From positions 496,001-560,000 of the forward strand of contig CP047919.1 in assembly GCA_010202465.1 (NCBI GenBank): a stretch of 64,000 nt of DNA, given 5' to 3'. Positions 1-64,000 of this stretch are shown in pieces. Origin of the DNA: Candidatus Saccharibacteria bacterium oral taxon 488 (GTDB lineage: Bacteria > Patescibacteriota > Saccharimonadia > Saccharimonadales > Saccharimonadaceae). Under the pieces are notes generated by a model that was not told the DNA's origin, ran no database searches, and saw only the letters and a list, made by a program, of their open reading frames with translations. How positions within the stretch are numbered: the stretch's first letter is position 1; every line of letters begins with the position of its first letter. Position numbers and translations under genes: made by a program.

Positions 1-666
1 ATTGGTGCAATCTCTGGCGCGCACATTAACCCAGCCGTGACGTTCGGTCTCTGGACGATGCGCAAGCTTCGAGCTATACTTGTGCCGTTCTACTGGGCAG
101 CACAATTCCTTGGCGCGATGGCTGCCGTTGTCTTGATGGGAGCAATTTCATCAGGCAGCTTCGTCATTAACTTTGACCAATTCACCACTTTCTCGTGGGC
201 GATCTTTGTCGTCGAGCTCGTCGGTATGGCGGTCTTTATGTTTGGCATCAGCGCAGCCCTATCGCGCACTGATCTCAAGAATACCAGTAAAGCCGTGGTC
301 ATTGGTATGTCATTGACACTTGGCTTGGTGGTTAGCGGTGCATTGCTACCACTCGCCCAAAATGCTGCTGTTCAAAAGTACCAAGAAGAGCAAGCAAATG
401 CGACTCGGCAAACTCAGCAGCTAAAGGATCAGCGCACCTACCCACGCGAAGTGTATATCAGCGGTGCAACACTGAACCCGGCAGTTGCTCTAGCGGTTAC
501 GGAAAAGACTAACTCACAGCTACAAAATGCTTCGGCACCAGCACAAAAAGCAGAGAAGCTGTATACCCGCCTCAGCCTTGAAGTAATCGCTGCGACGCTC
601 GTTGGTGCAGCACTCGGCGGTAACTTGTTCTTGCTCATCAACTACCGCAATAAGGAAGAAGAGTAA
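1..666 (+). CDS. Aquaporin/MIP-family channel (5' end outside window)
   Basis: Membrane channel for water or small neutral solutes. The frame is open from base 1, so only the C-terminal 221 residues are seen. Both signature NPA boxes are present: SGAHINPAV at the window edge (Asn at about residue 10) and GATLNPAVALA (about residues 155-165), with hydrophobic helices between and after them. Unusual is a hydrophilic, Gln/Glu/Lys-rich segment of about 25 residues just before the second NPA box, longer than the loop expected there. A strong terminator follows the stop codon. The family call is secure; water versus glycerol selectivity cannot be judged because the upstream helices are missing. Confidence 0.88.
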   Translation: MGAISGAHINPAVTFGLWTMRKLRAILVPFYWAAQFLGAMAAVVLMGAISSGSFVINFDQFTTFSWAIFVVELVGMAVFMFGISAALSRTDLKNTSKAVVIGMSLTLGLVVSGALLPLAQNAAVQKYQEEQANATRQTQQLKDQRTYPREVYISGATLNPAVALAVTEKTNSQLQNASAPAQKAEKLYTRLSLEVIAATLVGAALGGNLFLLINYRNKEEE

Positions 667-686
667 ATCATAGTTCTACCATAACG

Positions 687-717
687 ATATCCCGCCTCTT
701 TTGGCGGGATATTTTTT
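687..717 (+). terminator. Rho-independent terminator of the aquaporin gene
   Basis: A perfect 10-bp stem (687-696 with 703-712, ATATCCCGCC / GGCGGGATAT) has a 6-nt loop and is followed by a T-rich tail. It sits between the convergent aquaporin and rmuC genes. Confidence 0.85.
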
Positions 718-720
718 GCG

Positions 721-1791: not shown

Positions 1792-1797
1792 ACTCTT

Positions 1798-1826
1798 AGT
1801 GTACAGGGATTACAGAGACAAGACAA
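1798..1826 (-). promoter_or_regulatory. rmuC promoter, leaderless geometry
   Basis: Minus-strand TTGTCT (-35, 1826-1821), 17-bp spacer, TACACT (-10, 1803-1798). The start codon begins 6 nt downstream, leaving no room for a ribosome-binding site. Confidence 0.65.
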
Positions 1827-2304: not shown

Positions 2305-2345
2305 AATAGATACAACTATAGCAGTAATTTGATAAAACCGCAACC

Positions 2346-2828: not shown

Positions 2829-2835
2829 AAGCCCC

Positions 2836-2863
2836 ATTATACCCTGCTGGGCGTCGGCGTCAA
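2836..2863 (-). promoter_or_regulatory. Promoter of the PAP2 gene
   Basis: Minus-strand TTGACG (2863-2858), 16-bp spacer, consensus TATAAT (2841-2836). The ATG at 2828 starts 7 nt after the -10 box. Position relative to the tRNA decides the start codon. Confidence 0.7.
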
Positions 2864-2885
2864 ACCCTGAGCTCAACCCGCCAGC

Positions 2886-2914
2886 TTGCGCCGCTTTACC
2901 ATTCGTAGTATAAT
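2886..2914 (+). promoter_or_regulatory. tRNA-Gln promoter
   Basis: TTGCGC (-35, 2886-2891), exactly 17 bp, TATAAT (-10, 2909-2914), followed 12 nt later by the mature tRNA 5' end. Confidence 0.7.
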
Positions 2915-2925
2915 CAGACACGCAT

Positions 2926-3000
2926 TGGGGATTCGCCAAGTGGTAAGGCACCGGGTTCTGGTCCCGGCATTCGGGGGTTCGAATCCCTCATCCCCAGCCA
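2926..3000 (+). tRNA. tRNA-Gln (anticodon CTG), CCA encoded
   Basis: Cloverleaf of 75 nt. The 7-bp acceptor stem TGGGGAT / ATCCCCA closes the molecule, the anticodon stem CCGGG/CCCGG holds loop TTCTGGT (anticodon CTG, reads CAG), the T arm contains GGTTCGAATCC, and the discriminator G is followed by an encoded CCA. It has its own promoter and terminator. Confidence 0.93.
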
Positions 3001-3008
3001 AGAAAAAG

Positions 3009-3522: not shown

Positions 3523-3769
3523 AGATATAGTATACCGCTCCGCTCTAAAAAGCTCAAGCTTGTTGTATTATTTACCAAAACGCTTGCTTTTTTTACTAAA
3601 AACACGTACAGTAACAACAAGCGAACGATACAAAAACAAACACTACTGACGTTTCTTTCGCTCTACGATATCCACCACAACAAAATACCGTTACGAGTAT
3701 GTAGCGGTATTTTCCGTTGTTGGATAAATCACAACGCTATATATAGCGTATACGTGCTATAGTAACAAT
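3523..3769. other. Intergenic region with promoters and inverted repeats
   Basis: No coding frame is convincing here. It holds the minus-strand promoter of the preceding membrane gene, a 9-bp inverted repeat AAAATACCG / CGGTATTTT (3682-3690 with 3705-3713) that could end a plus-strand transcript, and the palindrome plus extended -10 of the ParB-like gene. A looser GCTTGTTG / CAACAAGC pair flanks a T-rich stretch near 3555-3625; its meaning is unknown. Confidence 0.5.
3734..3749. promoter_or_regulatory. 16-bp perfect palindrome, probable operator
   Basis: ACGCTATATATAGCGT is perfectly self-complementary. It covers the -35 position of the ParB-like gene, whose extended -10 is TGCTATAGT (hexamer 3758-3763). 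Because that gene encodes a helix-turn-helix ParB relative, autoregulation is a reasonable inference. Half-site similarity to the -10 itself (GCTATA) may be coincidence. Confidence 0.5.
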
Positions 3770-5550: not shown

Positions 5551-5585
5551 ATTCTTAATTATACCGCGCCCACATAGAAACCACC

Positions 5586-10551: not shown

Positions 10552-10579
10552 TTGACAAAATATTATTTAGTTGTATAAT
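10552..10579 (+). promoter_or_regulatory. Consensus promoter of the orphan gene at 10587
   Basis: Perfect TTGACA (10552-10557), 16 bp, perfect TATAAT (10574-10579). Start codon begins 7 nt downstream, so initiation of RNA and protein nearly coincide. The divergent pilM -10 (TATAAT on minus, 10519-10524) lies close by. Confidence 0.8.
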
Positions 10580-13376: not shown

Positions 13377-13418
13377 AGGAGCAATTATAGCACAAGTCGC
13401 CTCAGATACTCTGGATCT

Positions 13419-15540: not shown

Positions 15541-15568
15541 TTGACTTTTTATGTCTATCTGTTATAAT
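15541..15568 (+). promoter_or_regulatory. Promoter of the kinase-like orphan
   Basis: TTGACT (15541-15546), 16 bp, TATAAT (15563-15568); ATG 8 nt downstream. Leaderless geometry. Confidence 0.75.
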
Positions 15569-19359: not shown

Positions 19360-19392
19360 ACATACTATTATACCAAGCGGCCCAGATGGCGA

Positions 19393-22619: not shown

Positions 22620-22676
22620 GCTACTCATTGTATCATTATCTGGAACAATTTTCACCGATATGCGTTCGCCGAGGGC

Positions 22677-26560: not shown

Positions 26561-28660
26561 TCAAATTTTCTCTAATCTGGCGAATTCTACATTAAGCTTT
26601 TTCGTATTACCATCAGCAAATTGCACCGTCACCGCCATCCCGTCAACATCCACCACCTCACCCGCACCAAATTGTGGGCTTCGCACCCGCTCACCAACCT
26701 CGAGACCTATGTCATCAGTATAAAACACATCACCAGCTGGCGGCGCGGCAGGTGCATCCAGACCGCCGCTCATCAGCCCCATCTCATCGAGAAATCGCGA
26801 CGGCAGATTATAGCCGATCTGACCGAACTGCGTCCGTGAACTAGCACAAGTCACAAACAGCGCCTCTCGGGCCCGCGTAATCCCCACATAACAGAGGCGG
26901 CGCTCCTCCTCAACATCATCCGCTTTACCGCTGTCAAATACCCGTGCGTGCGGCAAGATTCCTTCCTCCAAGCCAGTCATAAACACCACCGGAAACTCCA
27001 GACCCTTTGCAGCGTGTAGCGTCATCAAGGTGACCTGCTGGTCTGCTTGGCTATCACTTGATGACATCAGCGCCATGTCTTCGAGGAATGTCGATACATC
27101 AGCATAGGCGTGCGCCTCGGCCACCAAAACACCGAGGTTTTCCAGCCGCTCTTCGGCCTGCACACTGCCGTCATTCACCGCTTCGCCGTAGCCGGTCTGC
27201 TCAATAATTTGTTCAATCGCCTCGGCCGGCGCCCTGTCAAGTAACTGTTGTAATTTTTGCATCAATTGACCGAACACCCGCAGCGGCTGCTTGACACGAG
27301 CGCTCAACCCTGTAGCCTCATCAACCGCCACCAGCCCCTCAATAATATTCCGACCCGATTGATCGGTCCAATCGAGAAATTTCGCCACGCTCACCGCGCC
27401 GATGCCACGCTTTGGTAGATTGACGATTCGCGTGAAGCTAACGCGGTCACTGGGTTGATATAATAACCGAAGATACGCCAGTACGTCCTTGACGACTGCT
27501 CGATCCAGAAACCGCAGGCCACCCACAATCTTGTAGGGGATGTGTCGTTGACGCAGCGCGCGCTCTATGGCGTAACTCTGGGCGTTGGTGCGGTACAGTA
27601 CCGCTATGTCGCTATAGGCTCGGCCCATCCTGGCCTGGCGATGAATTTCGTCAGCCACTGCCTGTGCCTCCTCGGCCTCGCTGTACAGTCGCCATAATTG
27701 CGGTGTCATCCCGCCAACTGCTTCTGTCCACAGGCTCTTGTCGGTGCGCTGGGTGTTATGTTGGATTAAGTTATTTGCCACCGTTAAAATCGCGCCCGTT
27801 GAACGGTAATTTTGCTCTAGTTTAATCACCGCTGCGCCCGGAAAGTCACGCTCAAAGTTAAGAATATTGGTATAATCTGCGCCACGAAAACTATAAATTG
27901 ACTGCGCATCATCACCGACCACACAGAGGTTGTGCTCTGGACCAACTAGCAGCTTGATCAGCGCATACTGCACCGCATTGGTATCTTGATACTCGTCGAC
28001 GAGAATGTGGCGAAATTGCTGCTGCCATTTGTGGCGGATGTCAGGCGAGGAGCGCAGTAGCTCCACCGCCTTAAGCAATAAATCATCAAAATCGAGCGCC
28101 CCAGCCCGGTGCATAGCGGCCTCGTACGCAGCAAATAATTCGGCCATTTGCTGTTTGACGGGGCCAACCGCCTGCATCATATACTCATCGGGGGAAAGCA
28201 TGTCATTTTTTGCCGCAGAAATAGCCGCAGCGATGCGGCGTGGCTTGATGTCGCGATCAGTCAGCCCGCGCGATTTCATCAACTGCTTAATGAGGCCCAG
28301 CCGATCATCTTCGTCATAAATAATAAAATTACGACCGAGACCAATTGACATCCCGTCTATCCTCAGTAGCCGCACACACATACTATGAAATGTCCCCATC
28401 CACGGCATGAAGCGTCGATCCGAGGCGTCTTCGCCCAGCATATCAGCCAAGCGCTGACGCATCTCTCGAGCAGCCTTGTTGGTGAAGGTCACCGCTAAGA
28501 TGCGGCTGGGAAAAATCCCTCGCTGGCTAATCAGATAGGCGATGCGATGCGTTAAGGTTTTTGTCTTACCACTCCCCGCTCCCGCTAAAATAAGCAGCGG
28601 CCCGCCATCATGCTGGACGGCTCGCCGCTGTTCGGGGTTGAGTTCAGATAGGATGTCCAT
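26561..28660 (-). CDS. UvrD/PcrA superfamily 1A DNA helicase
   Basis: 3'-5' DNA helicase for excision repair and replication-fork maintenance. 699 aa: LNPEQRRAVQ (Q motif), Walker A AGAGSGKTKTLTHR, TFTNKAAREM, TFHSMCVRLLR, Walker B VDEYQDTNAVQY, GDDAQSIYSFRGAD, NYRST, TLHAAKGLEFP and CYVGITRA. The C-terminal RVRSPQFGAGEVVDVDG is the Tudor-like tail typical of PcrA. The start codon overlaps the preceding stop (TAATG). Confidence 0.95.
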   Translation of the reverse strand: MDILSELNPEQRRAVQHDGGPLLILAGAGSGKTKTLTHRIAYLISQRGIFPSRILAVTFTNKAAREMRQRLADMLGEDASDRRFMPWMGTFHSMCVRLLRIDGMSIGLGRNFIIYDEDDRLGLIKQLMKSRGLTDRDIKPRRIAAAISAAKNDMLSPDEYMMQAVGPVKQQMAELFAAYEAAMHRAGALDFDDLLLKAVELLRSSPDIRHKWQQQFRHILVDEYQDTNAVQYALIKLLVGPEHNLCVVGDDAQSIYSFRGADYTNILNFERDFPGAAVIKLEQNYRSTGAILTVANNLIQHNTQRTDKSLWTEAVGGMTPQLWRLYSEAEEAQAVADEIHRQARMGRAYSDIAVLYRTNAQSYAIERALRQRHIPYKIVGGLRFLDRAVVKDVLAYLRLLYQPSDRVSFTRIVNLPKRGIGAVSVAKFLDWTDQSGRNIIEGLVAVDEATGLSARVKQPLRVFGQLMQKLQQLLDRAPAEAIEQIIEQTGYGEAVNDGSVQAEERLENLGVLVAEAHAYADVSTFLEDMALMSSSDSQADQQVTLMTLHAAKGLEFPVVFMTGLEEGILPHARVFDSGKADDVEEERRLCYVGITRAREALFVTCASSRTQFGQIGYNLPSRFLDEMGLMSGGLDAPAAPPAGDVFYTDDIGLEVGERVRSPQFGAGEVVDVDGMAVTVQFADGNTKKLNVEFARLEKI

Positions 28661-30795
28661 TACTTATAGTATAGCAGGAAAAAGTACGCTGCCGCACCGC
28701 CACCAACGCCGATAAGGGCAAAGAGAATGATCAATAGAATGGTACCGATGCCAGATTTTTTCTTATCAGGCTGGAGCGCTTCCCCGGTGGCTGGCTGGCT
28801 GGCTGCCGCATCAAACATCGGCTCTGGATCTGGTGCGATCTCGTCACCGGCCGTGTATTGCTGAGGAATATCGCCCGGAGTGTGCGGTCGACGTGGCGTC
28901 TCATCACCAGCTATCTCAGCGCCACTCTCATCCATCGACTCGATCGCCATGAGTTCACTGTCTAGTTCTGATGTATCAGCGGCGGGCTGCTTGGACGAAG
29001 CGCCTACCGATGTAGCATCTGCGTCGAGTTGCTCACTGACCTCGCTGGCTTCAATTTCATCAATGGTCGCTTCAAGGCTCGTACGATCAGCAGCAATGTC
29101 AGTATCAGCCGCCTCATCATGGTGTTCTACTACCTCGTCTCCAGCCGCCGCATCCGTCACCAGACGATCATCATCGGCCGTTAATTCATCCATGGTTAGT
29201 CCTTCACTATCAGCCGCCTTGGCCGGAGCGTCCTCTGCCAGCAAGCCCTCCTCGATAAAGGCGCTGTCGGTACTGGCCTCAGCTTCACTCGCCATCGACT
29301 CATAATCAGGCACGTCCTTGGTATTGAGCGACACATTGTCTGACGTCAGACCTTCAGCTACGTGCGATGGATCGGGCTGCAGAACGAGGCGTGGTGGTCG
29401 GCGCTTAATCTCGCGATCAGCTGCCGGTGAGTGAGCGGTGTTATCATCCGCCATCATATCGCTTGACGCGTCCTCGGCATCTTCAGTCATGTTAACGCCT
29501 TGCTGGCCGTTATTACCAGCCCGACCGGACAGATATGAGCCAGTCGGCTGAAGCGTCACGCCAGTGCGCGGCTGAGAAACGCTATGCCCGCGCATGACAG
29601 ACGATGGGTGCACAACGTCCATGAAACGGCCAGACGGTCGACGCGAAATAGCTGGTGATGGAGCAACGGCCGGCTCGTCATCATGTTTTGTATCTGAAGA
29701 ATCATCAGTTGGTTTCGCTGCTGACGTATCGGTCACTTTATCCTGCGGTGCGTCTGAGGCAGCCTGGTCATCCGCCTTTTTAGCTGGTGTTTTGATATCT
29801 GGAAATACCACGGCTGGTTTAGTCTCTGAGGCGGCGTGCGGAAATCCATTGGCTTCCGTCGACGGTGAAGCCGTCTCCCTGGTGGATGATTCTTGTAGTG
29901 AGGTCGGCGGCTCGCCCTGTGACTCACTGTGTGGCTCGTCATCACTAGACTCCGGGGTTGTTGACCGGGTCGGCGGTTCTGGTATCGAAGTAGGCGACGG
30001 CGGGACAGGCGACGAGGTTGTCTTGAACGACGGTATCGGCTCGAGCGTCAGCTTCGAGACAGGCTTTGGCGCTGGCTTTGTAACAGAAATCGGGACAGCA
30101 GTCGGCGCCGGTGTTGCTGCAGCCGCTGGCGGCGCACTTGGAGTGTTTGATGAGGCTGATGATTGTGTTGTCTTGGCCGGGGCTGGTGGCTTGCTCGTAT
30201 CGGTACTTGTTGACTCGGATGCGGGTACGGTTGCCATGGCTGAAGTTGGAGATACAGGCGCAGACACGGGCGTCGACAGCGGTGCTGGCGTCGCTGTCGG
30301 TGCAGTGGTCGGCAACGGAGGCGTTAGCGGCTTGATGGTCAATGGCGGAATCGGCGTTGATGGCGTGGTGGCAGGCGACGGTGGGGCTGACGGAGCAGGG
30401 GCTGCTGGTGCTACCGACGAAGACGGTGACGTAAGTGGCGACGGCGGCGTTGATGTTGGTTCAGACTTCTCAATCGGCTGCGGTGCGGTAGCCACTGGCG
30501 CGCTCGGTGGCGTTGATAATGACACCGCAGGTTGCGGCGCAACTGGCTTGGGTTGAGGGCTTAGCGGCGCGACCGGAGGTGTCGCTGGTTCAGGCTGAGA
30601 AGCGGGGGTGCTAGATTGAACAGATTCAGGCGACGACGCCTTCACCGTATTTTCAGCAGTACTAGCCGCGGGTGCCGTCGACGTCGCCACGTCCGTATCA
30701 ACACCGGCCGCCTGCTGAGCCGCTTCTTTCTCTGCCCGTTTCTGCATCAGTGACGTCACCGCCCGATCAAGTTCGTCAAAATCAATGTCTGACAT
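28660..30795 (-). CDS. Low-complexity Pro/Ser/Thr/Ala-rich tail-anchored protein
   Basis: 711 aa without a recognised domain. A short charged N-terminus (DFDELDRAVTSLMQKRAEKE) is followed by about 300 residues of Pro/Thr/Ser/Ala/Val low complexity, then about 330 acidic residues and one hydrophobic helix at the very end (682-709) preceded by KKK. No signal peptide, so the bulk is predicted cytoplasmic with a C-terminal anchor, although inverse topology cannot be excluded. The reverse strand is also open over about 1 kb because of this composition. SD AGGGGGG; gap of 8 bp from tpiA. Confidence 0.68.
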   Translation of the reverse strand: MSDIDFDELDRAVTSLMQKRAEKEAAQQAAGVDTDVATSTAPAASTAENTVKASSPESVQSSTPASQPEPATPPVAPLSPQPKPVAPQPAVSLSTPPSAPVATAPQPIEKSEPTSTPPSPLTSPSSSVAPAAPAPSAPPSPATTPSTPIPPLTIKPLTPPLPTTAPTATPAPLSTPVSAPVSPTSAMATVPASESTSTDTSKPPAPAKTTQSSASSNTPSAPPAAAATPAPTAVPISVTKPAPKPVSKLTLEPIPSFKTTSSPVPPSPTSIPEPPTRSTTPESSDDEPHSESQGEPPTSLQESSTRETASPSTEANGFPHAASETKPAVVFPDIKTPAKKADDQAASDAPQDKVTDTSAAKPTDDSSDTKHDDEPAVAPSPAISRRPSGRFMDVVHPSSVMRGHSVSQPRTGVTLQPTGSYLSGRAGNNGQQGVNMTEDAEDASSDMMADDNTAHSPAADREIKRRPPRLVLQPDPSHVAEGLTSDNVSLNTKDVPDYESMASEAEASTDSAFIEEGLLAEDAPAKAADSEGLTMDELTADDDRLVTDAAAGDEVVEHHDEAADTDIAADRTSLEATIDEIEASEVSEQLDADATSVGASSKQPAADTSELDSELMAIESMDESGAEIAGDETPRRPHTPGDIPQQYTAGDEIAPDPEPMFDAAASQPATGEALQPDKKKSGIGTILLIILFALIGVGGGAAAYFFLLYYK

Positions 30796-31584: not shown

Positions 31585-32820
31585 TCATTTTAGTCCGTGT
31601 GCGTCTAGTAAACTTTCCACACCTGGTAATTTTTTGCCGCTCATCAGCTCGAGGCTAGCCCCGCCACCGGTAGAAATATGCGAAAATTGCTTGCCGTCAT
31701 GCCCATCCCACCTAAGGACAAACTCTGCCGTATCGCCGCCGCCAATGATTGAGGTGACGCCGTGGTTTTGTACGATGGCTTCAGCGATCCGAGCCGACCC
31801 TCGAGCAAACAACGGGTTAGTCGAGTACCCCAGCGGCCCATTCCAAATGACTGTTTTGGCCGAGGCAATCACTGAGGCAAATTGTGCCATCGTCTGAGCA
31901 CCAATATCTAGCGCCATCTCATGCTCACCGATCCCATCAACCGACACTTCATGACGATCACCCGATGCTTCTGGTGACAACGCCACCGCTACGTCGCTAG
32001 GTAGCCGCAAGAACTGATCGACCTGTTCATCACCAACCTTCCCGGCAGCACGGTGGTAGATGGCCGCGAGCACTTGCTCTTGATCCGGCTCAACTGTGCT
32101 GTGACCCATCCTGTGGCCGCGGTAGGCGAGGAAGGTATTGGCCATCGCCCCACCAATCAAAATTGTGTCAGCTTTATCAATCAGCCGCTCAATCAGCGCA
32201 ATCTTATCAGCAATTTTCACACCACCAATAATCGCCACTACTGGTCGCGCTGGACGTGACATCGCTGCGGTTAGCGCGGTATATTCGTGCACCAACAGGT
32301 CACCGGCTAGCCCCGGCACGTATAGCGTAATCGCATGGGTACTGGCGTGAGCTCGATGTACCACCGCAAAACCATCCTGCACAAAATAATCCGGCCGCAC
32401 CGCCCGAGCAATTGCCTTGGCAAACACCGTATCATCACGCGACTCCTCGTCATAAAACCGCAAATTTTCTAGCATCAGTATGTCGCCGGCTGCCATATGC
32501 CGCGCTGCTTGACGAAGTTTATCACCGACACAGCCATCAATAAACTGCACTGGCCGCCCGAGCAGCTCAGCCAGTCGGCGCGCCACTGGACGCAGGCTAT
32601 ACGTCGGATCGGCCCCCTTTGGCCGCCCGAGGTGACTCATCAAAACAATCTTGCAGCGTTGCTCTAATAGATAGCGCAGAGTCGGCAAACTAGCGCGAAT
32701 TCGTAAGTCGCTGGCAATCCCACCAGTCGCAGTCAAGGGCACATTATAATCAACCCGCACCAGGACGGTCAGCCCGCGGAGATTAACGTCATGAATTGTT
32801 TGCTTGAAAAATCTGCCCAC
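31585..32820 (-). CDS. pgk: Phosphoglycerate kinase
   Basis: Transfers phosphate from 1,3-bisphosphoglycerate to ADP. 411 aa: RVDYNVPL substrate loop, LMSHLGRPKG, GGVKIADKI, VIWNGPLGY and nucleotide loop GGGDTAEFVLR. The start is GTG at 32820 preceded by GAAAAGG; it follows the pyruvate kinase stop by 12 nt, indicating one transcript. Confidence 0.97.
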   Translation of the reverse strand: MGRFFKQTIHDVNLRGLTVLVRVDYNVPLTATGGIASDLRIRASLPTLRYLLEQRCKIVLMSHLGRPKGADPTYSLRPVARRLAELLGRPVQFIDGCVGDKLRQAARHMAAGDILMLENLRFYDEESRDDTVFAKAIARAVRPDYFVQDGFAVVHRAHASTHAITLYVPGLAGDLLVHEYTALTAAMSRPARPVVAIIGGVKIADKIALIERLIDKADTILIGGAMANTFLAYRGHRMGHSTVEPDQEQVLAAIYHRAAGKVGDEQVDQFLRLPSDVAVALSPEASGDRHEVSVDGIGEHEMALDIGAQTMAQFASVIASAKTVIWNGPLGYSTNPLFARGSARIAEAIVQNHGVTSIIGGGDTAEFVLRWDGHDGKQFSHISTGGGASLELMSGKKLPGVESLLDAHGLK

Positions 32821-32832: not shown

Positions 32833-34256
32833 CTACTCCATTGTCCGGATCTGGATATTGTCAGTCTTGCCCGGCCGGCCTGGTTGATGGCCGCTGACCA
32901 ATACCAACGTCACTGGATCCTCGCCAAAGTAACCTTCGGCCTTTAATTCCTCCGCTAACTTATTCGCCGAACCGAGACCACTTGGGCGAACGTACGAGCG
33001 CGTGGCGTAACTTAACGCTAATTTCTGGGCCGTTTTTTGGCTATCAGTAACGCTAATAATCGGCATATTCGGTCGAAAGGCACCGACATTCACCGCGGTT
33101 ACACCGGTGCTAGTCTCAGCAATGATTGCTCCCGCCTTAAGTTCAGTAGCCAACCGCGCCGCCGTGTAACTGAGCAGCGCGTCATGCTTGCGGCGCTTCT
33201 CACTCGACTCAACCGCCATGACATCACTGTGCTCCTGAGTGTACATAATCGTCCGGCGCATTGCCTGCACTGTCTCGATCGGATATTTACCGTTGGCCGT
33301 TTCATCCGACAACATCACCGTGTCGGCACCCTGGATGACCGCATTGGCAACGTCGCTCACTTCAGCGCGAGATGGCTCAGGATTGTCAACCATGCTGCCC
33401 ATCATCTGCGTGGCGACGATGCTGAGCTTAGAATATTTACGACAAAGAGCGATAATACGCCGCTGAATAACTGGCACGATCTCTGCCCCGGCCTCAACCG
33501 CTAGGTCGCCGCGCGCCACCATGATACCGTCACTTGCCTTGACAATCTCCTCCAGATGCTCATCGGCAATTGCTGATTTCGTTTCGATCTTAGCAATGAT
33601 ATACGCATCCGATCCCAGCGCTGTCAGCCGCGAGCGTAAATCAATAATGTCGTCCTCTGTCTGCACAAAACTGAGCGCCACATAATCAAAATCTTGACCA
33701 GCCGCCCACTCGATATCGGCGATATCTTTTGGCGTCAAGATATCACCACCAAAATCGGTATCTGGCAGATTCAGACCCTTGCGGCTCATCAAAAATCCGT
33801 CATTCTGTACCTCCACCTTGATGGCTGTTGGACCAGCAATTTCACGAACGATCGACTTGATCTTGCCATCAAACATATACAGCGGCTCGCCAACTTTCAT
33901 TTTCTCGGCGAGATTATACTGGACGGGTAGATTGAAACTTCCATCGTGTTCCGCAATCGACGAATCAAGCGTCAGCATATCACCAGCCCGCACCGTCAGC
34001 ATGTTGTCTTTGAGAACGCCGAGGCGGATTTTGGACCTTGAAGGTCTTGGAGAATGGCAACTGGTTTACCCTGCTCATGACTGGCCGTGCGAATCCAGTC
34101 GATTTGCTCACGCCGCTCATCATAACTACCGTGGCTGAAATTCAGACGAAAGCCATTGACACCGGCCTGCATAAGTTGACTAATTTTATCCTGACTCATC
34201 GTTGCCGGACCGATAGTCGCTAGGATCTTGGTACGTTTAAAAATTGTGTTACTCAT
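32833..34256 (-). pseudogene. pyk: Pyruvate kinase, interrupted by a single-base frameshift
   Basis: Two adjacent frames together encode one full pyruvate kinase. The first (34256 down to 33996, 86 aa) carries TKILATIGPAT, GFRLNFSHGSYDERR and AILQDLQGPK. It then shifts to nonsense, while the second frame continues with KIRLGVLKDNMLTVRAG and runs to 32833 with KGLNLPD, IIAKIETKSA, GIMVARGDLAVE and ATQMMGSM. The break is at an A4 run (plus-strand tttt at 34029-34032); one extra A would restore the frame. Either a sequencing or assembly error or a real disruption. TATAAT (34264-34269) ends 7 nt before the ATG. Confidence 0.88.
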
Positions 34257-34299
34257 CCTTTTGATTATAACACCGGTTAGGCGCTGAGAAAAGATATAA

Positions 34300-39246: not shown

Positions 39247-39259
39247 ACTCCTTAGTATA

Positions 39260-41902: not shown

Positions 41903-41947
41903 CCCCTTTATCATACCATAAGCGCCGTCAAACGCGCCACTTGACGA

Positions 41948-42532: not shown

Positions 42533-42546
42533 GCTTCCATTATACT
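42517..42546. promoter_or_regulatory. Overlapping divergent promoters of GNAT gene and pta
   Basis: Plus strand: TTGTCA (42517-42522), 18 bp, TATACT (42541-42546), pta ATG 6 nt later. Minus strand: TATAAT (42544-42539), GNAT ATG 6 nt later. The two -10 boxes share four base pairs, and the pta -35 lies inside the GNAT coding sequence. Confidence 0.65.
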
Positions 42547-43977: not shown

Positions 43978-44045
43978 GGGGCCGATTATAGCACCTCTCA
44001 TTTTAGTGTGGCTGTAGCACTGGTTTTACCATAGGGGATCCTTCG

Positions 44046-44396: not shown

Positions 44397-44416
44397 ATAT
44401 AAATAATAGCATATGT

Positions 44417-46054: not shown

Positions 46055-48085
46055 TTATTGTATAAGCTCTAACAATGTTTGTTCATCAATAATTTTAGTG
46101 CCGTATTGTTCAGCTTTTTTTAGCTTGCTGGCGCCGACTTTACCACCCGCTACCAGATATGTTGTATCTTTTGCAACAGCGGTTTGAAAGACACCACCTA
46201 GATTGCGGATTTTTTCCGCGGCGGCATCACGGCCCATCGACTGCAGCGTGCCAGTAATGACGAAACTTTGGCCAGCCAGGCGATCAGATTTTCGACTAAA
46301 CTGCGGCGCCACACCCAAGTCAGCAAATTTTTCGAGCAGCGTCACATTATCTTCATCAGCAAACCATGCCACGATTGACTCGGCAACAATTTCACCGACG
46401 CCGTCCACTTCGCGTAGCTCATCGATAGTCGCTTGGCTGAGTTTCTCAACACTTTCAAAGTGATTCGCAAGATCAATCGCCGTCTGCGCGCCAACATGCC
46501 GAATACCGAGACCAAACAAAAATCGCTCCAAGGCTGGCTGCTTCTTGGCAGCAATGGCATCAATGAGCTTTTGCGCGGAAATATCAGCGAAACGCTCTAA
46601 CTGCAGCAAATCGTCTTTCGTCAGACGGTAGATATCTGCCAAATCATTAACCAGCCCAGCTTCTACCAGCGCCTCGACATTTTTCTCGCCCAATGTGTCG
46701 ATGTCCAGCGCGCCTTTGGAGGCAAAGTGTGCCAGGGACCGCTTCAAAATCAGCGGGCCACTCAAACCTTTAACGCGGTAGACTGCCTCGCCCTCTGGCC
46801 GCACAAATGCTAGTTCTGGATATTGGCGCGCCAGTTCTGCTGGATAATCAATTGGCTTAGTATCTGCCGGTCGCAATTCTTTTAGCACAGTTTGCACCTG
46901 CGGGATGATGTCGCCGGCCTTGAAAATCACCACCGTATCGCCGCGGCGCACATCTAGCCGGGCAATTTCATCAGCATTATGCAGACTGGCGTGCTGCACC
47001 GTCGTACCAGCCACCACCACTGGGTCAAACACCGCTACTGGCGTGGCCGCACCGGTTCGACCGATGGAAATAACGATATCACGGACGATGGTCGTAGCTT
47101 CTTCGGCGGCAAATTTATAGGCCACTGCCGCTCGTGGTGTCTTGCCAACGATGCCCAGCTCGGCAAACTGTCGCCGGTCATTGAGCTTGATGACCGCTCC
47201 GTCAGTATTAAACTGCAGCGACTGACGCAGCTCATCAAGGTGATTGATATAGCTCATCACTTCGTCCAGGCCATAGACAATTTGTGTCTGCCGACTGGTG
47301 GTGATGCCCAACTCGTTCATCATCTGATAGCCAAAGGCAATTGTCGGCGTATCCTCGAGGTTATCGCGAATGATGTCATAACCAACGAAGTGCAATGGAC
47401 GCTCTGCCACCAGTTTTGGGTCAAGCTGACGAATCGTCCCGGCTGCTAAATTACGCGGATTGGCAAATTCTGGCTGACCGGCCGCTCGCCGACGCTGATT
47501 TAAGGCTGCAAAGTCCTCTTTGTGCATCACGATTTCACCACGAATCTCCGTCCGACCACGCAAAAAATGAGCAAATCGCTGGTTGGCGCGCAGTGTCAGC
47601 GGCACATTCTGAATCGTCCGCACATTCATGGTCACATCTTCACCAACCAATCCGTCGCCGCGCGTCACGGCCCGCGTCAGCACACCGTCTTCATAAATCA
47701 GCGCACAGGCCAGGCCATCCATCTTGATATCACACAAAAATTCTTCAGTGATGTCCCGGCGCACTTTTTTCATGCGCTGTATCCACGCCGCAACTTCTTC
47801 TCGGTCAAACACGTCCTGCAGTGAAATCATCCGCGTTTGATGCTGGACCTTGGTAAATTTACCGAGCGCTTTTCCTGCCACCCGCTGGGTCGGGCTGTCT
47901 GGTGTGACGAGTTCAGGAAACTGCTCTTCTAGCTGCGACAATTCATGTTTCAGGCTATCAGCCGCCGCCTCACTCATGATCGATTCATCAAACACATGGT
48001 AATGATAGCGATAATCATTGATCAGATCTCGCAGTTTGACAATTCGTTGCTCGGCCGCCTGCCGATCAAGCTGGCGCGCTGTCAT
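46055..48085 (-). CDS. ligA: NAD-dependent DNA ligase lacking zinc-finger cysteines
   Basis: Seals DNA nicks using NAD. 676 aa from the ATG at 48085, in the end of the preceding gene. Domain Ia (YHYHVFDESIMSE), adenylation site CDIKMDGLA with nucleophile Lys about 121, TRGDGLVGEDVT, RGEIVM, FNTDGAVIKLND, OB fold GRTGAATPVAVFDPV, helix-hairpin-helix repeats and BRCT end (SFVITGTLQSMGRDAAAEKI). Between the OB fold and HhH, the four zinc Cys of typical LigA are absent (about residues 413-449). Confidence 0.96.
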   Translation of the reverse strand: MTARQLDRQAAEQRIVKLRDLINDYRYHYHVFDESIMSEAAADSLKHELSQLEEQFPELVTPDSPTQRVAGKALGKFTKVQHQTRMISLQDVFDREEVAAWIQRMKKVRRDITEEFLCDIKMDGLACALIYEDGVLTRAVTRGDGLVGEDVTMNVRTIQNVPLTLRANQRFAHFLRGRTEIRGEIVMHKEDFAALNQRRRAAGQPEFANPRNLAAGTIRQLDPKLVAERPLHFVGYDIIRDNLEDTPTIAFGYQMMNELGITTSRQTQIVYGLDEVMSYINHLDELRQSLQFNTDGAVIKLNDRRQFAELGIVGKTPRAAVAYKFAAEEATTIVRDIVISIGRTGAATPVAVFDPVVVAGTTVQHASLHNADEIARLDVRRGDTVVIFKAGDIIPQVQTVLKELRPADTKPIDYPAELARQYPELAFVRPEGEAVYRVKGLSGPLILKRSLAHFASKGALDIDTLGEKNVEALVEAGLVNDLADIYRLTKDDLLQLERFADISAQKLIDAIAAKKQPALERFLFGLGIRHVGAQTAIDLANHFESVEKLSQATIDELREVDGVGEIVAESIVAWFADEDNVTLLEKFADLGVAPQFSRKSDRLAGQSFVITGTLQSMGRDAAAEKIRNLGGVFQTAVAKDTTYLVAGGKVGASKLKKAEQYGTKIIDEQTLLELIQ

Positions 48086-49181
48086 CGGCGACGACCTTTC
48101 GGTAGAATAGATAAATGTAGCACGCCGAGGCAACAATCGAGAACGCCACCAACATCAACGCCACGAGCGGCACCAGCGGCAGCCAGTTCAACGCCGGTAT
48201 CACCGTTTTGAGTGCACCATCAATCGTAATGACCGGAATAAGCACCGCCGCCCAAACCACGGCGAGCACCACCAGCAGCCACATCAATCGCAGCAAGATT
48301 CGTATCCGCCGTCCTAGTACAACGTCCGAAGCCAGTCGCGCTGCTTCTAGTGGATACATTCCCGGTAGAGTGACGATCACCATAGCAAACAACGTACTCG
48401 TTAGCCAGTATATCGACAAGGTAACGATTAATATGGTGGCACCGGCCGCCAACATCAGCACCACCGTCTGTTGTAACATGCCTGACGTATCCGCCGCTCC
48501 GTAGATGATAGCCGCTATCGCCGCTGGTAATAATTGAATGAGCGCAATAAACACCAGAACCGCCAGGGCAATGACTGGTGCACCCGCGTTATACAGCCCA
48601 TCACGAATCTTTAGGCGCTTATCAGCGGTCACGCCACGAATCAGCCAGATTGTCGTCAGCCATATATATAGCCCAATTAACGCACCAACTAGCTGCTGGG
48701 ATGATCCCACACCACCCGTCGAACCGCCAAGCTGATTGGTAACCACGCCGGCAAATAGCGCCAGTGTCGGCATCACAGCACCCAGGGCTCCTTCTTGGTT
48801 CGCTTCATTAATTGTATCTTTGAGTTGCTGGTACGTATCTTGTGACATTAACCCCGATAACAATACGCCCAATACCGCATATATTGCCGCCAATCCAACG
48901 AAGATCCGCCAGTGCTTTCGCATCAGTTGCCATGCTTGTTTGGTCAGCGCAAAGTAGCCTGGCAACTTGAGCGAACGACGATAGTCACGTCGCTTGGTCA
49001 CTCGAAAACTACGGTGCGGCCGACGGCGGAGAAAGGCTTGGCGGCGCTGCGTTAGTCGCCGCCAAGCCTTATTAAGCCTCTCTTTTAACGATACTGTTTT
49101 CTTTGCCGCGGCGCGACTATCTGCTTTTGAAGTTGCTCGTTTACGCCGCGTGGCGTGTTGTTTTTTGGTTGACTTCGTCAT
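48066..49181 (-). CDS. Multi-pass membrane protein with basic N-terminus
   Basis: 371 aa. The first 75 residues are extremely Lys/Arg-rich (RRLTQRRQAFLRRRPHR), followed by about six transmembrane helices with two long hydrophobic pairs in the second half. The overall look is like YciC/DUF975 or glycerophosphodiester-phosphodiesterase membrane domains, but no motif is decisive. It starts 2 nt after the htpX stop and overlaps ligA by 20 bp, so it is in the htpX-ligA polycistron. Confidence 0.65.
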   Translation of the reverse strand: MTKSTKKQHATRRKRATSKADSRAAAKKTVSLKERLNKAWRRLTQRRQAFLRRRPHRSFRVTKRRDYRRSLKLPGYFALTKQAWQLMRKHWRIFVGLAAIYAVLGVLLSGLMSQDTYQQLKDTINEANQEGALGAVMPTLALFAGVVTNQLGGSTGGVGSSQQLVGALIGLYIWLTTIWLIRGVTADKRLKIRDGLYNAGAPVIALAVLVFIALIQLLPAAIAAIIYGAADTSGMLQQTVVLMLAAGATILIVTLSIYWLTSTLFAMVIVTLPGMYPLEAARLASDVVLGRRIRILLRLMWLLVVLAVVWAAVLIPVITIDGALKTVIPALNWLPLVPLVALMLVAFSIVASACYIYLFYRKVVADDSAPA

Positions 49182-50059: not shown

Positions 50060-50079
50060 ATTAGATATTATACCAAAAA

Positions 50080-56606: not shown

Positions 56607-56608
56607 AC

Positions 56609-58192
56609 TTATGATGATAGCATAAGCATAATCTTTTTCGCTAGCTCTTTATCCACGATTTTTTCCAGGTCGGTGAGTGAGGCATTCCGTATACGGCTGA
56701 TGCTACCAAATTTTTTCAGCAATTTGGCGCGGGTTTTTGGCCCAATGCCAGGAATTTCCTCCAGCTGGTTTTTCGTTTGCTGCTGACGTTTGAGCGCGGT
56801 GTGATAGCTTACGGCAAAGCGATGTGACTCGTCGCGGATGCGCTGGAACAGTTTGACGATGTCGGTTGTCGCAAGGGTATTCTCGTCCGCCGTCGGACGT
56901 TCGTTGCGAGTTTGCTCCATGCTAGCTCGTAAGTTTTTTGAATGCGAACTGGCGTTGCGCCGACTCGGATGTAAATTCACTATATAAACATCGCCGTCTT
57001 CATGGATGGCAATATCTACCCGCAACTGCAGCCGAACCTGCTCAATGAACGCTATGTCAATTTGCGAACCAGTCTTATGCACCAATAATTCTTCCTCGCG
57101 CTTGGCGATGCTGACAATCGGCACGGTGACGCCACGCTCATCACGCGCTCTAATGGCTGCCGCTAGTTGACCTTTGCCGCCGTCAATCAGTAGCAGATCA
57201 GGACGACCCCAACTTTTCAGATGACGCTCACTCAGCCGGCGAAAAATCGTCTGATAGATATTGCCGGTGTCATCATTTTTCTCACTGACTTTGAACTTGC
57301 GGTACTCCGCCCGGTCGCTCACGCCATTGGTAAATACCACCATGCTGGAGACAACTTGCCGGCCGCTCATGTGTGAAATGTCATAGCCCTCGATGCGCAC
57401 TGGGATATCTTTTAGACCCAACAATTTCGCCAAATCAGCCAGCGCCTTGTCTTTAGAAATATCCAAGAATTCTTTGTCGCCAAAACAAACCCGCCGCTGT
57501 AACTCCCGCATGGCGCTGAGCTTATTGCGAAGATCAGCCGCCCGCTCAAAATCATGCAGTCCAGCCGCCGTTTTCATGTCGCGTTCCAGCTCGGCAGCGA
57601 TGGCTTTACGATTGCCCTTGATGTAGCTGATGAGTTTGCGTAAATTAGCTTTATAGGCAGCTGATCCATCACTCAGCCGCGGGCTCAAGCCCAAATCTTC
57701 ATCCAACTTCGACTGCCCTGGTCGCCTCTGCCTGGTCAAATACGGAAACACTCGCCGCAAATATCGCAGGGCTTTTTTCAAGGCAAAGCCATTATAAAAC
57801 GGGCCAACATATTCTGCGCCGTCATCGGCTGGATTGCGCGTAAAACTGACGGTCGGCCACTCACTTTTCATGTCGATTCGCACATACATCTGCGATTTAT
57901 CGTCGCGCAGCAGTACGTTGTAGCGCGGCATATAACGCTTGACCATCTCGCTTTCCAGAAACAAAGCATCAACCTCGCTCTCGGTCTCAATCCAATCAGT
58001 ATCAGCAATTTCCGCCACCAGCGCCATGGTTTTATTGTCCCGACCGCGCGAATCCTGAAAATACTGACGCACGCGGTTTTTCAGCACCGCCGCCTTGCCC
58101 ACATAAATAATCTCGCCGCTGGCTGACTTATGAAAATAGACACCGGGAGTGCAGGGTAAGGTTTTGAGTTTTTGCTGCAACCGTTGATTCAC
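56609..58192 (-). CDS. uvrC: Excinuclease ABC subunit C
   Basis: Makes both incisions in nucleotide excision repair. 527 aa: GIY-YIG domain (GVYFHKSASGEIIYVGKAA), UVR helices (ERAADLRNKLSAMRELQR), RNase H-like second nuclease (IEGYDISHMSGRQVVSSMVV, LLIDGGKGQLAAA) and tandem HhH (LEEIPGIGPKTRAKLLKKFG). The start is taken as GTG at 58192: TATAAT (58200-58205) ends 7 nt upstream, while the ATG at 58201 overlaps that -10 box. Confidence 0.95.
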   Translation of the reverse strand: MNQRLQQKLKTLPCTPGVYFHKSASGEIIYVGKAAVLKNRVRQYFQDSRGRDNKTMALVAEIADTDWIETESEVDALFLESEMVKRYMPRYNVLLRDDKSQMYVRIDMKSEWPTVSFTRNPADDGAEYVGPFYNGFALKKALRYLRRVFPYLTRQRRPGQSKLDEDLGLSPRLSDGSAAYKANLRKLISYIKGNRKAIAAELERDMKTAAGLHDFERAADLRNKLSAMRELQRRVCFGDKEFLDISKDKALADLAKLLGLKDIPVRIEGYDISHMSGRQVVSSMVVFTNGVSDRAEYRKFKVSEKNDDTGNIYQTIFRRLSERHLKSWGRPDLLLIDGGKGQLAAAIRARDERGVTVPIVSIAKREEELLVHKTGSQIDIAFIEQVRLQLRVDIAIHEDGDVYIVNLHPSRRNASSHSKNLRASMEQTRNERPTADENTLATTDIVKLFQRIRDESHRFAVSYHTALKRQQQTKNQLEEIPGIGPKTRAKLLKKFGSISRIRNASLTDLEKIVDKELAKKIMLMLSS

Positions 58193-58213
58193 AGCTACCA
58201 TTATATCAAGCGA

Positions 58214-59017: not shown

Positions 59018-59035
59018 ACTATAGTCCTTGTCCGC

Positions 59036-59773: not shown

Positions 59774-59851
59774 AAGCTTATTGTATCACCCATGCAGGTC
59801 TCGACCCACTAAACTATTTTCATTTTAGCCAAGAGGCGCTATAGTAGTGAT

Positions 59852-61270: not shown

Positions 61271-61284
61271 AGTACGCTCAAATT

Positions 61285-64000
61285 TTATTTCAAGACTACA
61301 CACTCGTCGCCCAGTGCCTGACGCAGCTGACTCATGAGCTGGTCGCCAGCCTCAACACGAAACGGCATGCGCATGGCAGATTTATTGGCCTCACCCAGCA
61401 CCAACACCACATCAGTCACACCAGTGTATTCGGAGCAGAGTGACTTGAGTGCTACTAGTTTATCATGGTCACTCGGGTTTTTGATATGAAGAAATAGCTT
61501 TTCTGTCTCGGGCACGGCGTGCGTGGCTGCTGGACGCGGTGGCGTGTTTGTCGCGTCGGCCGGTGTTGACTTCATGTTCGTCTCTTTCGCTGTCGATACT
61601 CGGGCCGTGCCTGCTCGCTGAGTCGTTTGAGTTCGGAACGCTGTACGCCGCTCTTGCTTGACTTTATTACTCATTCTTGGCGCTTCCATTTTACGGCCAG
61701 TTGACTGATACTGCCGGAGGTCATCGTCAGAAATCAGTTCAATTTCATCAGCAATCATCTTGCTCTCTGAGCCCAAATTACCATCCCGATCACGGGCTGA
61801 GTTTTTGCCGGTCACCCGAATGACAGCGTCCTGGACGAGCTTGGCGCCGACTTGCTCATACAAATTCGGAAAAACGATCACTTCGCCCTCACCAAACTTA
61901 TCTTCGATCCCGACGAATGCCATCTTGCTGCCTGACTTGGTAACGATGGTGCGCACCGTCGTGATAATACCGCCGATCGTCATCAGGCGACCGTCGTATT
62001 CTGGCACCAGCTGCGTTAGTGGCTGGGCCTGCTCACTGAGGTATGTTTCATACGCATCGAGCGGGTGCGCCGAAATATACAGCCCCATCAGCTCGCGCTC
62101 CCACATCAGCCGCTCTTTGTTGGTGTGTTTGGCCGGCGCCGGCTGTAGCTGCATCGTTGGCTGAACATCAGCCGACTCATCACCAAGCATACCAAACAGG
62201 TCAGTCTGCCCCGACGCGGCCTCTTTCTGAGTCTTTTGAGCAAAGGCGACAATGGTATCAAGATTAAATAATAAATCAGACCGATCACCAAAGCTATCAA
62301 AGGCACCAGTTTTGATCAGCGACTCCCAAGCCTTGCGGTTAAACTTGCTGGTCGACACTCGCTTGGCAAAATCTTCGACCGACTTGAACGGGCCATCAGC
62401 CTCGCGAGCACGAATAATTTCTTCCACCGCGCCGACACCGACGCCCTTGACCGCTGCCATACCAAAACGAATCTTCTTTTCACCAGGCACCACCGCGAAC
62501 TCGACAAATGACTCATTAACATCCGGGTTAAGCACTTCAATGCCCATGTGCTTACACTCGGTCATCTCGATGGCCAGGCGCTCGGTGTCGTCCTGATCAC
62601 TGGTCATCAGCGCCGCCATGAAAGCGTCAGGGTAATGCGCCTTGAGATACGCCGTCCAATAGGCGATCAAGCCATAACACGCCGCGTGACTCTTATTGAA
62701 ACAGTAGTTAGCAAATTCTTCCAATGCATCCCAAAACTGCTCAGCGATTTCCTTAGTCGCACCACCAACCTTGACCGCGCCTTCGACAAACTCTGGCTTG
62801 ACCTTTTTCATCAGGTCAATTTTCTTTTTACCGACTGCCTTACGCAGGGTGTCGGCTTGGCCACCGGTAAAGCCACACCACTCTTTGGAAATCTGCATAA
62901 ACTGCTCCTGATAGACCAAGATGCCGTACGTATTCTTCAGCGAGTTTTCCATACCGGGGTGCAAGTAGGTGATTTCTTCTTCGCCGTGCTTGCGCTTGAT
63001 GAATGAGTCGATAAACTGCATCGGCCCCGGGCGGTACAACGCCACCATGGCGATGATGTCTTCAAAGACACTCGGCTTGAGATCGCGCAGGTACCGCTTC
63101 ATGCCAGCCGATTCCAACTGGAACACGCCAGTGGTGTCGCCGCGCTGGAATAATTTGTAGGTTTCTTCATCATCCAGCGGCAGTGTTGATAAATCAATAT
63201 CCGTTTTGTAGACTTTACGAATAATACGCAGGGCGTTGTTGATGATGGACAAGTTAGACAGACCCAAAAAGTCCATCTTCAGCAGCCCAAGCTCTTCCAC
63301 CGGGCCCATCGGATACTGCGTTGCCACCACGCCCTTTTGCGCCATCTCGAGCGGCACGTATTTCACCAAATCATCCGGCGCAATCACCACGCCGGCGGCA
63401 TGCACACCGTGCGAACGAATCGTTCCTTCCAGCTGCGACGCAAAGTCATAAACCGTTTTGGCAGTCGGGTTGGTTTCGTATTCTTTTTTAAGGTCAGGAT
63501 CTTCCTCGAGCGACTTTTTGATAGGCACATGCCGGCCCTGAACGGGCGGTGGAATGAGCTTGGCCAGCCGGTCCGACTCGCCATATGGTACCTGCAGCAC
63601 CCGCGCCACGTCACGCACCGAAGCACGCGCCGCCATGGTACCAAAGGTACAGATGTTAGCCACTCGTTCTGGGCCATATTTCTTGGCACAATATTCAATC
63701 ACCTCACCGCGGCGGGTGTCTTGAATGTCGATATCGATGTCGGGCATGGAAATACGATCCGGGTTAAGGAAGCGCTCAAACAGCAGGTCATAATGCAGCG
63801 GATCAAGGTCGGTGATGTTTAGAGCATAGGCGATGATAGAGCCAGCTGCTGAGCCACGCCCCGGGCCAAAAATAATTCCTTGAGATTTGCCCCAGTTGAT
63901 AAAGTCCTGGACGATCAAAAAGTAGCCGTTATAGCCCATGTTGTCGAGCACGCCGAATTCCATATCTAGTCGCTCTAGCTGCGCCTCTGATAACTTGGCT
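61285..64000 (-). CDS. dnaE: DNA polymerase III alpha subunit (5' end outside window)
   Basis: Replicative polymerase. The frame is open to the right edge, so the N-terminal PHP domain is not seen. Visible: GYNGYFLIVQDFINWGKSQ, GPGRGSAAGS, palm Asp residues in PDIDIDIQDTRRGEVIEY, VPIKKSLEED, MVALYRPGPMQFIDSF, NKSHAACYGLIAYWTAYLKA, and a C-terminal OB domain (IGGIITTVRTI). After the OB fold comes a Thr/Ala/Arg-rich linker and a terminal fragment resembling the tau-binding end. DnaE1-type layout. Confidence 0.95.
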   Translation of the reverse strand, partial: AKLSEAQLERLDMEFGVLDNMGYNGYFLIVQDFINWGKSQGIIFGPGRGSAAGSIIAYALNITDLDPLHYDLLFERFLNPDRISMPDIDIDIQDTRRGEVIEYCAKKYGPERVANICTFGTMAARASVRDVARVLQVPYGESDRLAKLIPPPVQGRHVPIKKSLEEDPDLKKEYETNPTAKTVYDFASQLEGTIRSHGVHAAGVVIAPDDLVKYVPLEMAQKGVVATQYPMGPVEELGLLKMDFLGLSNLSIINNALRIIRKVYKTDIDLSTLPLDDEETYKLFQRGDTTGVFQLESAGMKRYLRDLKPSVFEDIIAMVALYRPGPMQFIDSFIKRKHGEEEITYLHPGMENSLKNTYGILVYQEQFMQISKEWCGFTGGQADTLRKAVGKKKIDLMKKVKPEFVEGAVKVGGATKEIAEQFWDALEEFANYCFNKSHAACYGLIAYWTAYLKAHYPDAFMAALMTSDQDDTERLAIEMTECKHMGIEVLNPDVNESFVEFAVVPGEKKIRFGMAAVKGVGVGAVEEIIRAREADGPFKSVEDFAKRVSTSKFNRKAWESLIKTGAFDSFGDRSDLLFNLDTIVAFAQKTQKEAASGQTDLFGMLGDESADVQPTMQLQPAPAKHTNKERLMWERELMGLYISAHPLDAYETYLSEQAQPLTQLVPEYDGRLMTIGGIITTVRTIVTKSGSKMAFVGIEDKFGEGEVIVFPNLYEQVGAKLVQDAVIRVTGKNSARDRDGNLGSESKMIADEIELISDDDLRQYQSTGRKMEAPRMSNKVKQERRTAFRTQTTQRAGTARVSTAKETNMKSTPADATNTPPRPAATHAVPETEKLFLHIKNPSDHDKLVALKSLCSEYTGVTDVVLVLGEANKSAMRMPFRVEAGDQLMSQLRQALGDECVVLK

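Follow-up and report, generated by a model that had tools for sequence, protein, structure and literature searches.

The 64,000-nucleotide stretch of Candidatus Saccharibacteria bacterium oral taxon 488 analysed here (CP047919.1, positions 496,001 to 560,000; hereafter the window, GC content 0.51) carries a -10-type promoter box very close to the start codon in about one third of its genes. A preliminary description had listed 22 genes with such a box 6-8 nucleotides (nt) before the start codon, and in all 22 both hexamer and spacing agree with that account. Its statement that the hexamers are TATAAT or one-mismatch variants holds for 21 of them, which match in at least five of six positions; rmuC, with TACACT, matches in four. 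A UvrD-family gene starting at 28660 adds one site that was newly found. Twenty of the resulting 23 start codons are ATG and three are GTG (nifS-like, uvrC and thrE). The sites are, in window positions, with strand and Pfam family:

1798 to 1803, minus strand: TACACT (4/6), 6 nt before ATG 1791 of rmuC (PF02646)
2836 to 2841, minus strand: TATAAT, 7 nt before ATG 2828 of PAP2 (PF01569)
3529 to 3534, minus strand: TATACT, 6 nt before ATG 3522 of a gene with no Pfam family
3758 to 3763, plus strand: TGC-TATAGT, 6 nt before ATG 3770 of a gene earlier called ParB-like (no Pfam match)
5558 to 5563, minus strand: TATAAT, 7 nt before ATG 5550 of trmD (PF01746)
10574 to 10579, plus strand: TATAAT, 7 nt before ATG 10587 of an orphan (no Pfam match)
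13384 to 13389, minus strand: TGC-TATAAT, 7 nt before ATG 13376 of alaS (PF01411)
15563 to 15568, plus strand: TGT-TATAAT, 8 nt before ATG 15577 of an orphan earlier called kinase-like (no Pfam match)
19367 to 19372, minus strand: TGG-TATAAT, 7 nt before GTG 19359 of a class-V aminotransferase, nifS-like (PF00266)
22627 to 22632, minus strand: TGA-TACAAT, 7 nt before ATG 22619 of metG (PF09334)
28668 to 28673, minus strand: TGC-TATACT, 7 nt before ATG 28660 of the UvrD-family helicase (PF00580)
34264 to 34269, minus strand: TGT-TATAAT, 7 nt before ATG 34256 of pyk (PF00224)
39254 to 39259, minus strand: TGA-TATACT, 7 nt before ATG 39246 of leuS (PF13603)
41910 to 41915, minus strand: TGG-TATGAT, 7 nt before ATG 41902 of a Mur ligase, murF-like (PF08245)
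42539 to 42544, minus strand: TATAAT, 6 nt before ATG 42532 of GNAT (PF00583)
42541 to 42546, plus strand: TATACT, 6 nt before ATG 42553 of pta (PF01515)
43985 to 43990, minus strand: TGC-TATAAT, 7 nt before ATG 43977 of a Ham1-like gene (PF01725)
44403 to 44408, minus strand: TGC-TATTAT, 6 nt before ATG 44396 of an NDT-like gene (PF05014, just below cut-off)
50067 to 50072, minus strand: TGG-TATAAT, 7 nt before ATG 50059 of an htpX-like gene (PF01435)
56614 to 56619, minus strand: TGC-TATCAT, 7 nt before ATG 56606 of a prepilin-like gene (PF07963)
58200 to 58205, minus strand: TGA-TATAAT, 7 nt before GTG 58192 of uvrC (PF08459)
59780 to 59785, minus strand: TGA-TACAAT, 6 nt before ATG 59773 of HD (PF01966, below cut-off)
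59840 to 59845, plus strand: TATAGT, 6 nt before GTG 59852 of thrE (PF06738)

The hexamer of the UvrD-family gene falls within the end of the upstream open reading frame (ORF) 28660-30795. A Pfam scan of 30 window proteins gave a match in 25 and bears out most of the earlier gene names. No family was assigned to genes 3522 and 10587 or to those called ParB-like and kinase-like, and the scores of NDT and HD fall just short of the cut-offs. Pyruvate kinase (pyk, 32833-34256) is split across the overlapping frames 33996-34256 and 32833-34002, both with matches to the PK family, a frame change that may be an error or real.

Because our own gene finder overlooked genes in the window, the list there was curated by hand: 65 ORFs were picked from 148 and the upstream sequence of each was read, and five of them were left out of the count, namely two ORFs at the ends of the window, two that were doubtful and the downstream pyk frame, giving n = 60. 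In the other genomes the genes called by the finder were used, which adds noise there. Consensus strings for scoring were TATAAT, TTGACA and the core of the Shine-Dalgarno (SD) sequence. A hexamer was counted when it preceded the start codon by 6-8 nt and matched TATAAT in at least five of six positions, A2 and T6 being obligatory, and in the chance test all candidate starts near the 5' end of each gene were tried, so that starts were not chosen by the motif. Under this rule 24 of the 60 genes have a hit, compared with a mean of 4.6 (standard deviation 2.3, maximum 12) in 300 dinucleotide shuffles. The hits concentrate at spacings of 6 (11 genes) and 7 nt (14 genes), the other positions averaging about 2.1 (Poisson p = 5.6e-12). 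Of these 24 genes, those at 31585-32820 and 46055-48136 were discounted, their hits lying only at codons deep within the gene; the 22 that remain are 21 of the listed genes and the UvrD-family gene, and rmuC makes 23. It is barely credible that the boxes are chance matches, or that starts were chosen to suit the motif. The earlier starts were indeed picked by eye, and two of the 24 scored genes are clearly such hits, but the controls with shuffled sequence, other spacings, longest-ORF starts and other genomes, together with conservation in a related genome described below, tell against this explanation, and as a full account it is refuted by the shuffle test.

The strictest pattern, an exact TGnTATAAT followed by ATG at a spacing of 5-7 nt, occurs four times in the window, against one occurrence at the control spacing of 15-17 and one of the reversed pattern; thus the case for the window depends also on one-mismatch hexamers and GTG starts. 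Using a position weight matrix trained on genomes G005, G433 and G402, with motif fractions calculated as the excess over other spacings and hence as lower bounds, 22-28% of the 60 genes carry the motif at thresholds 4-8 and 16% at threshold 9. As a side observation, genes 10508, 14948 and 56212 have a -10-like hexamer 9-11 nt before their likely start, as would fit a very short leader; in the pilM-like gene 10508 it lies at 10 nt, and at 9 nt in its sister counterpart.

We compared these features with a sister genome (OX335598.1, G001), a Candidatus Saccharibacteria chromosome that holds the best relative of the window leuS (85% identity). The hexamers are often extended, as the preliminary description had noted: TGn stands directly upstream in 15 of 22 window sites (binomial against 1/16, p = 1e-13), although it played no part in the selection rule, and in 33 of 68 sites of the sister compared with 6 of 126 control hexamers within genes. 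TTGACA-like elements (at least 5/6) precede 1/15 window sites and 1/10 controls; in the sister they occur at 9/68 sites compared with 1/126 controls, so that some -35 elements seem to be used there. A T directly precedes the start codon at 16 of the 23 window sites, and in the sister at 43/67 sites against 114/288 other starts. The sister and G433 each encode one sigma70-type factor and G377 adds a second, shorter one, and in all three genomes the sequence IPVHMVET follows region 2. The matching H and E of Escherichia coli sigma70 contact the extended -10. The sister rpoD (L138) changes frame near its C-terminus, probably through an assembly indel.

Taken together, the sites are very probably vegetative promoters of the sigma70 type, the majority with an extended -10, from which RNA would start at or just before the start codon and would be leaderless. 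The RpoD holoenzyme would bind TGnTATAAT, mostly without a strong -35, and transcription would begin either at the start codon's own first base or 1-2 nt upstream. The resulting mRNA would lack an SD sequence, and the ribosome presumably binds the 5'-terminal AUG or GUG, as in other bacteria. These promoters would be used in the cell alongside SD starts, which serve many other genes of the same genome.

The distribution of SD sequences fits this division. The 16S rRNA of the sister ends ATTACCTCCTTT, so the anti-SD is intact there. In the window an SD core is found at 0/23 motif genes compared with 16/37 others (2/23 motif genes in a looser 4-mer test), in a set of 20 relatives (704 kb, genomes picked for high motif counts or strong signal) at 0/133 compared with 196/401, and in the sister at 0/48 compared with 104/291, an absence that is partly mechanical since the -10 occupies that space. 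The expectation from shuffled sequence in the motif groups is 0-0.05 for groups of at least 11 genes and 0.17 for one group of six.

Whether the motif marks the first genes of transcription units was assessed in the same sets. Among the relatives it precedes 86/256 first genes compared with 22/183 internal ones (p = 1.6e-7), and in the sister 31/157 compared with 6/127 (p = 1.5e-4). With a weight matrix trained on other genomes, the 20 genomes give 99/256 first genes (28.8 expected), 29/95 in-between genes (13.0) and 23/183 internal genes (9.5). In the window, 10 of the 23 sites lie no more than 60 nt behind a gene on the same strand, and we take these to be promoters accommodated in short gaps between genes or in the ends of genes. 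The earlier claim that operon-internal genes carry SD sequences instead is therefore too simple for the window, while the relatives do display the contrast between first and internal genes. The sequence likewise speaks for pervasive leaderless transcription, through the spacing peak, TGn, the sister, the class-wide signal and its absence in Firmicutes, but the further suggestion that this is the main mode for first genes goes too far by count, the motif preceding 13/29 of them in the window and, in relatives picked for strong signal, the 86/256 given above. Leaderless starts would thus be one of two main modes.

Conservation was assessed for the 12 genes whose orthologue in the sister has a readable start region (rmuC, PAP2, 3522, trmD, alaS, nifS-like, leuS, htpX-like, uvrC, HD, metG and murF); the other 11 of the 23 sites have no orthologue in the examined half of that genome, the Ham1 match (32%) falling short of its start. 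In all 12 a -10-like hexamer is retained at 6-7 nt from the start:

rmuC: the same hexamer, TACACT, at the same spacing as in the window
PAP2: TATACT at 6
3522 orthologue: TATACT at 6
trmD: TACACT (4/6) at 7
alaS: TGG-TATAAT at 7
nifS-like: TGA-TATAAT at 6, with a GTG start as in the window
metG: TGC-TATAAT at 6
leuS: TGC-TATAAT at 7
Mur ligase: TGG-TATGAT at 6
htpX-like: TGG-TATAAT at 6
uvrC: TGTAAT at 7, the aligned start being ATG
HD: TATAAT at 6

Seven of ten sister orthologues have at least 5/6 matches with A2 and T6, while rmuC, trmD and uvrC do not (metG and murF are outside the ten). Across the ten pairs the hexamer has an identity of 0.90, compared with 0.41 for the 36 nt lying upstream of it, a contrast that is partly built in because the pairs were aligned in register on the hexamer. 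The sister start falls at the same residue in 9 of the 12 evaluable genes, with an offset of seven residues in the 3522 gene, and in metG and murF the frame is broken at the sister starts, probably by assembly indels. The start corrections that had been proposed for PAP2 and uvrC are backed by this comparison; those for metG and murF are backed as well, albeit through the regions where the sister frame is broken. For PAP2 the longest form of the ORF (to 2951) runs into a tRNA-Gln on the opposite strand (2926-3000), an independent sign that favours a start further in, such as that at 2828.

The preliminary description had proposed a histogram of -10 to start-codon distances against shuffled sequence as a check, and the 6-8 nt peak found in the window recurs in the sister (340 kb) at 6 nt, where it comprises 24/157 first genes compared with 2/127 internal ones when longest-ORF starts are used. 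No such peak was found in Bacillaceae (367 kb, 1/189 first genes at spacing 6) or Paenibacillus (201 kb, 1/80), the Bacillaceae displaying instead a rise beyond 24 nt. In a draw of 195 genomes from the class, the strict pattern occurs 8144 times at spacings 5-7, 1231 times at 15-17 and 379 times reversed; 190 genomes have more at 5-7 than at 15-17, two have equal numbers and three fewer, and 128 reach p < 0.01 alone. Counts within the class are uneven, from 0 to 154 exact sites per genome, with 43 of the 195 at 80 or more. In G377, a weak genome with 20 exact sites, a small peak persists when one mismatch is allowed. The weight-matrix fractions are 9-11% of 355 genes in the sister, 1-9% of 82 in G377 and -4 to 0% in the Firmicutes controls.

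Among genomes not in the class draw, four Bacillaceae (5.2-5.7 Mb) gave 17-23 strict hits and 9-15 reversed ones, and the corresponding numbers are 5/4 for Paenibacillus, 11/3 for Enterococcus, 7/2 for Spirochaetia and 5/3 for Bdellovibrio. A 0.9-Mb metagenome-assembled genome of Chloroflexi gave 10/1 and two Patescibacteria of other groups 10/0 and 14/1, and from this excess over the reversed pattern it follows that a weaker signal exists outside the class. Fifty genomes of a phylum draw of 286 that are not in the class draw gave 417 compared with 136 hits, 34 of them having more at 5-7, nine equal numbers and seven fewer. The mode looks patchy outside the class, and some of these 50 genomes could belong to it.

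The same counts bear on the alternative that the motif is a translational signal, either an AT-rich unstructured stretch for non-SD initiation or a site for S1 binding, rather than a promoter. A passage in Nakagawa 2017 (PMC5397173) calls an AT-rich bias near -20 to -10 ambiguous between a Pribnow box and an S1 site, which leaves room for such a role. We consider it very unlikely here, given that the motif follows the extended -10 consensus, including TGn, in a strand-specific manner and at a fixed 6-7 nt, that it is rare when reversed (the 379 compared with 8144 above), and that a sigma70-type factor is present in the sister and in G433.

Divergent gene pairs present the motif in its most compact form. 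The start codons of GNAT (42532, minus strand) and pta (42553, plus strand) are separated by 20 nt, and the -10 boxes of the two genes overlap by 4 bp (42541-42544) on opposite strands. In the relatives we found a 20-nt palindrome-like cassette, CATGnTATAATTATAnCATG, that contains both start codons of two divergent genes, 14 nt apart, together with two opposed extended -10 boxes, each of which takes its TG from the opposite gene's start codon. The predicted transcription start sites (TSSs) are 21 bp apart in GNAT/pta and 15 bp apart in the cassette. It occurs at 18 places in 14 of the 195 genomes, and its reversed control at none. Sixteen places were inspected (L119-L134): at 14, frames of at least 144 aa open from both ATGs, and at L119 and L122 from one. 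The 14 two-sided places are not independent and comprise five kinds of pair, which by likeness we take to be thymidine kinase/uracil-DNA glycosylase (5), glycyl-tRNA synthetase/ABC transporter (5), galE/sugar transferase (2), one pair with smpB and one with dnaG. Exact palindromes of the form CAT N6 ATTATAAT N6 ATG are rare (4 places in 3/51 genomes). Among 60 divergent pairs in the 20 genomes the motif is on both sides in 18, on one side in 24 and on neither in 18. Pairs with the motif on both sides number 1 of 1 called in the window, 4/29 in the sister, 1/9 in G005, 1/6 in G433, 0/8 in G402 and 2/7 in G377; under a rule similar, not identical, to that of the 20-genome count, the Firmicutes have 0/47 (Bacillaceae 0/33, Paenibacillus 0/14).

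These pairs also bear on the possibility that the adjacent -10 boxes are genuine but of secondary importance, with the main transcripts starting further upstream with a leader or arising by read-through within operons. The 10 of 23 sites no more than 60 nt behind a same-strand gene would permit read-through, and 5/23 have a second -10-like hexamer 9-44 nt before the start. A leadered transcript of these genes would lack the usual ribosome-binding site, the SD core being absent from all 23 starts (2/23 in the looser test), and the sister keeps the adjacent hexamer while the 36 nt upstream are only 41% identical. In the cassettes, the 14 nt that separate the start codons are too few for a leader, or for a second promoter outside coding sequence. 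We therefore regard upstream initiation as an improbable account of the sites as a whole.

Several observations weigh against the leaderless interpretation, in addition to the limits already attached to the SD and identity comparisons. In the window by itself the motif does not distinguish first from internal genes (13 first and 10 internal motif genes compared with 16 and 21 others, p = 0.43), in a test where the starts of the other genes were picked by SD score and the gaps are thus rough. Exact sites number fewer than 10 in 35 of the 195 class genomes, and five of the 195 have no excess at 5-7. Hexamers matching in only four positions, as in rmuC and the sister trmD, are weak by themselves. 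In G433 (p = 0.36) and G377 (p = 0.2) there is no significant preference for T at the base preceding the start codon. The spacing is mostly 7 in the window and mostly 6 in the sister (8:14 compared with 48:20, p = 0.0056), a difference that suggests that many genes may have their +1 one base upstream of the start codon.

For the broader picture our judgement is only slightly better than even: in Saccharibacteria, and patchily in other Patescibacteria, at least about a quarter of transcription units would be served by extended -10 promoters that directly adjoin the start codon, with divergent genes in some genomes sharing CATGnTATAATTATAnCATG as a bidirectional cassette, and the genes of such pairs (presumably tdk/ung and glyS/ABC transporter, by likeness) would be expressed by turns, with a leader on neither mRNA. 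Expression by turns would follow because the opening of one promoter should exclude the other.

The leaderless mechanism is known in other bacteria, and Saccharibacteria would be a new case. According to the main text of Zheng 2011 (PMC3160421), groups rich in leaderless genes include Actinobacteria (19.2% on average) and Deinococcus-Thermus (39.4%), with a -10 at a fixed short spacing, no SD and a mixture with SD-led genes in one genome, as here; "TM7" and "candidate" are absent from that main text. The main text of Zhong et al. 2025 (PMC12340547) describes -10 boxes adjoining ORFs in Deinococcus-Thermus; as here, a promoter directly before the ORF gives a leaderless mRNA, the -35 is optional and the motif corrects start annotation. 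Their promoters were reporter-tested, whereas ours are predicted from sequence; their bacterial scan omitted unclassified and symbiotic species, and the main text names neither Saccharibacteria nor Patescibacteria. In Mycobacterium tuberculosis, Cortes et al. 2013 (PMC3898074) give 26% of genes with a primary TSS as leaderless, including 7 of 14 such tRNA synthetase genes; here alaS, metG and leuS carry the motif, their start sites being predicted where those of M. tuberculosis were measured. Bidirectional promoters with symmetrical -10s have start sites 7-25 bp apart, mostly 18 (Warman 2021, as described in a passage of PMC10268837); they share with ours the overlapping, opposite -10s, and in our case each of the two predicted start sites coincides with a start codon. 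Among the matches listed, which covered open papers without preprints, we found no report of leaderless genes in Saccharibacteria, Patescibacteria, the candidate phyla radiation or TM7, although an entry in supplements is possible, and none of the matches listed held TSS data for Saccharibacteria. In some of the matches the word leaderless stands in a reference list or in a remark on YchF.

If this interpretation is correct, many essential genes of a large, mostly uncultured and host-dependent group lack a ribosome-binding site at their start, and start-codon annotation would change in many genomes. It would also explain how promoters fit into the 0-60 nt gaps of reduced genomes. Saccharibacteria cells would then offer a new test ground for leaderless translation, in which the divergent cassettes allow a clean test, the interval between their start codons being too short for any other promoter or leader.

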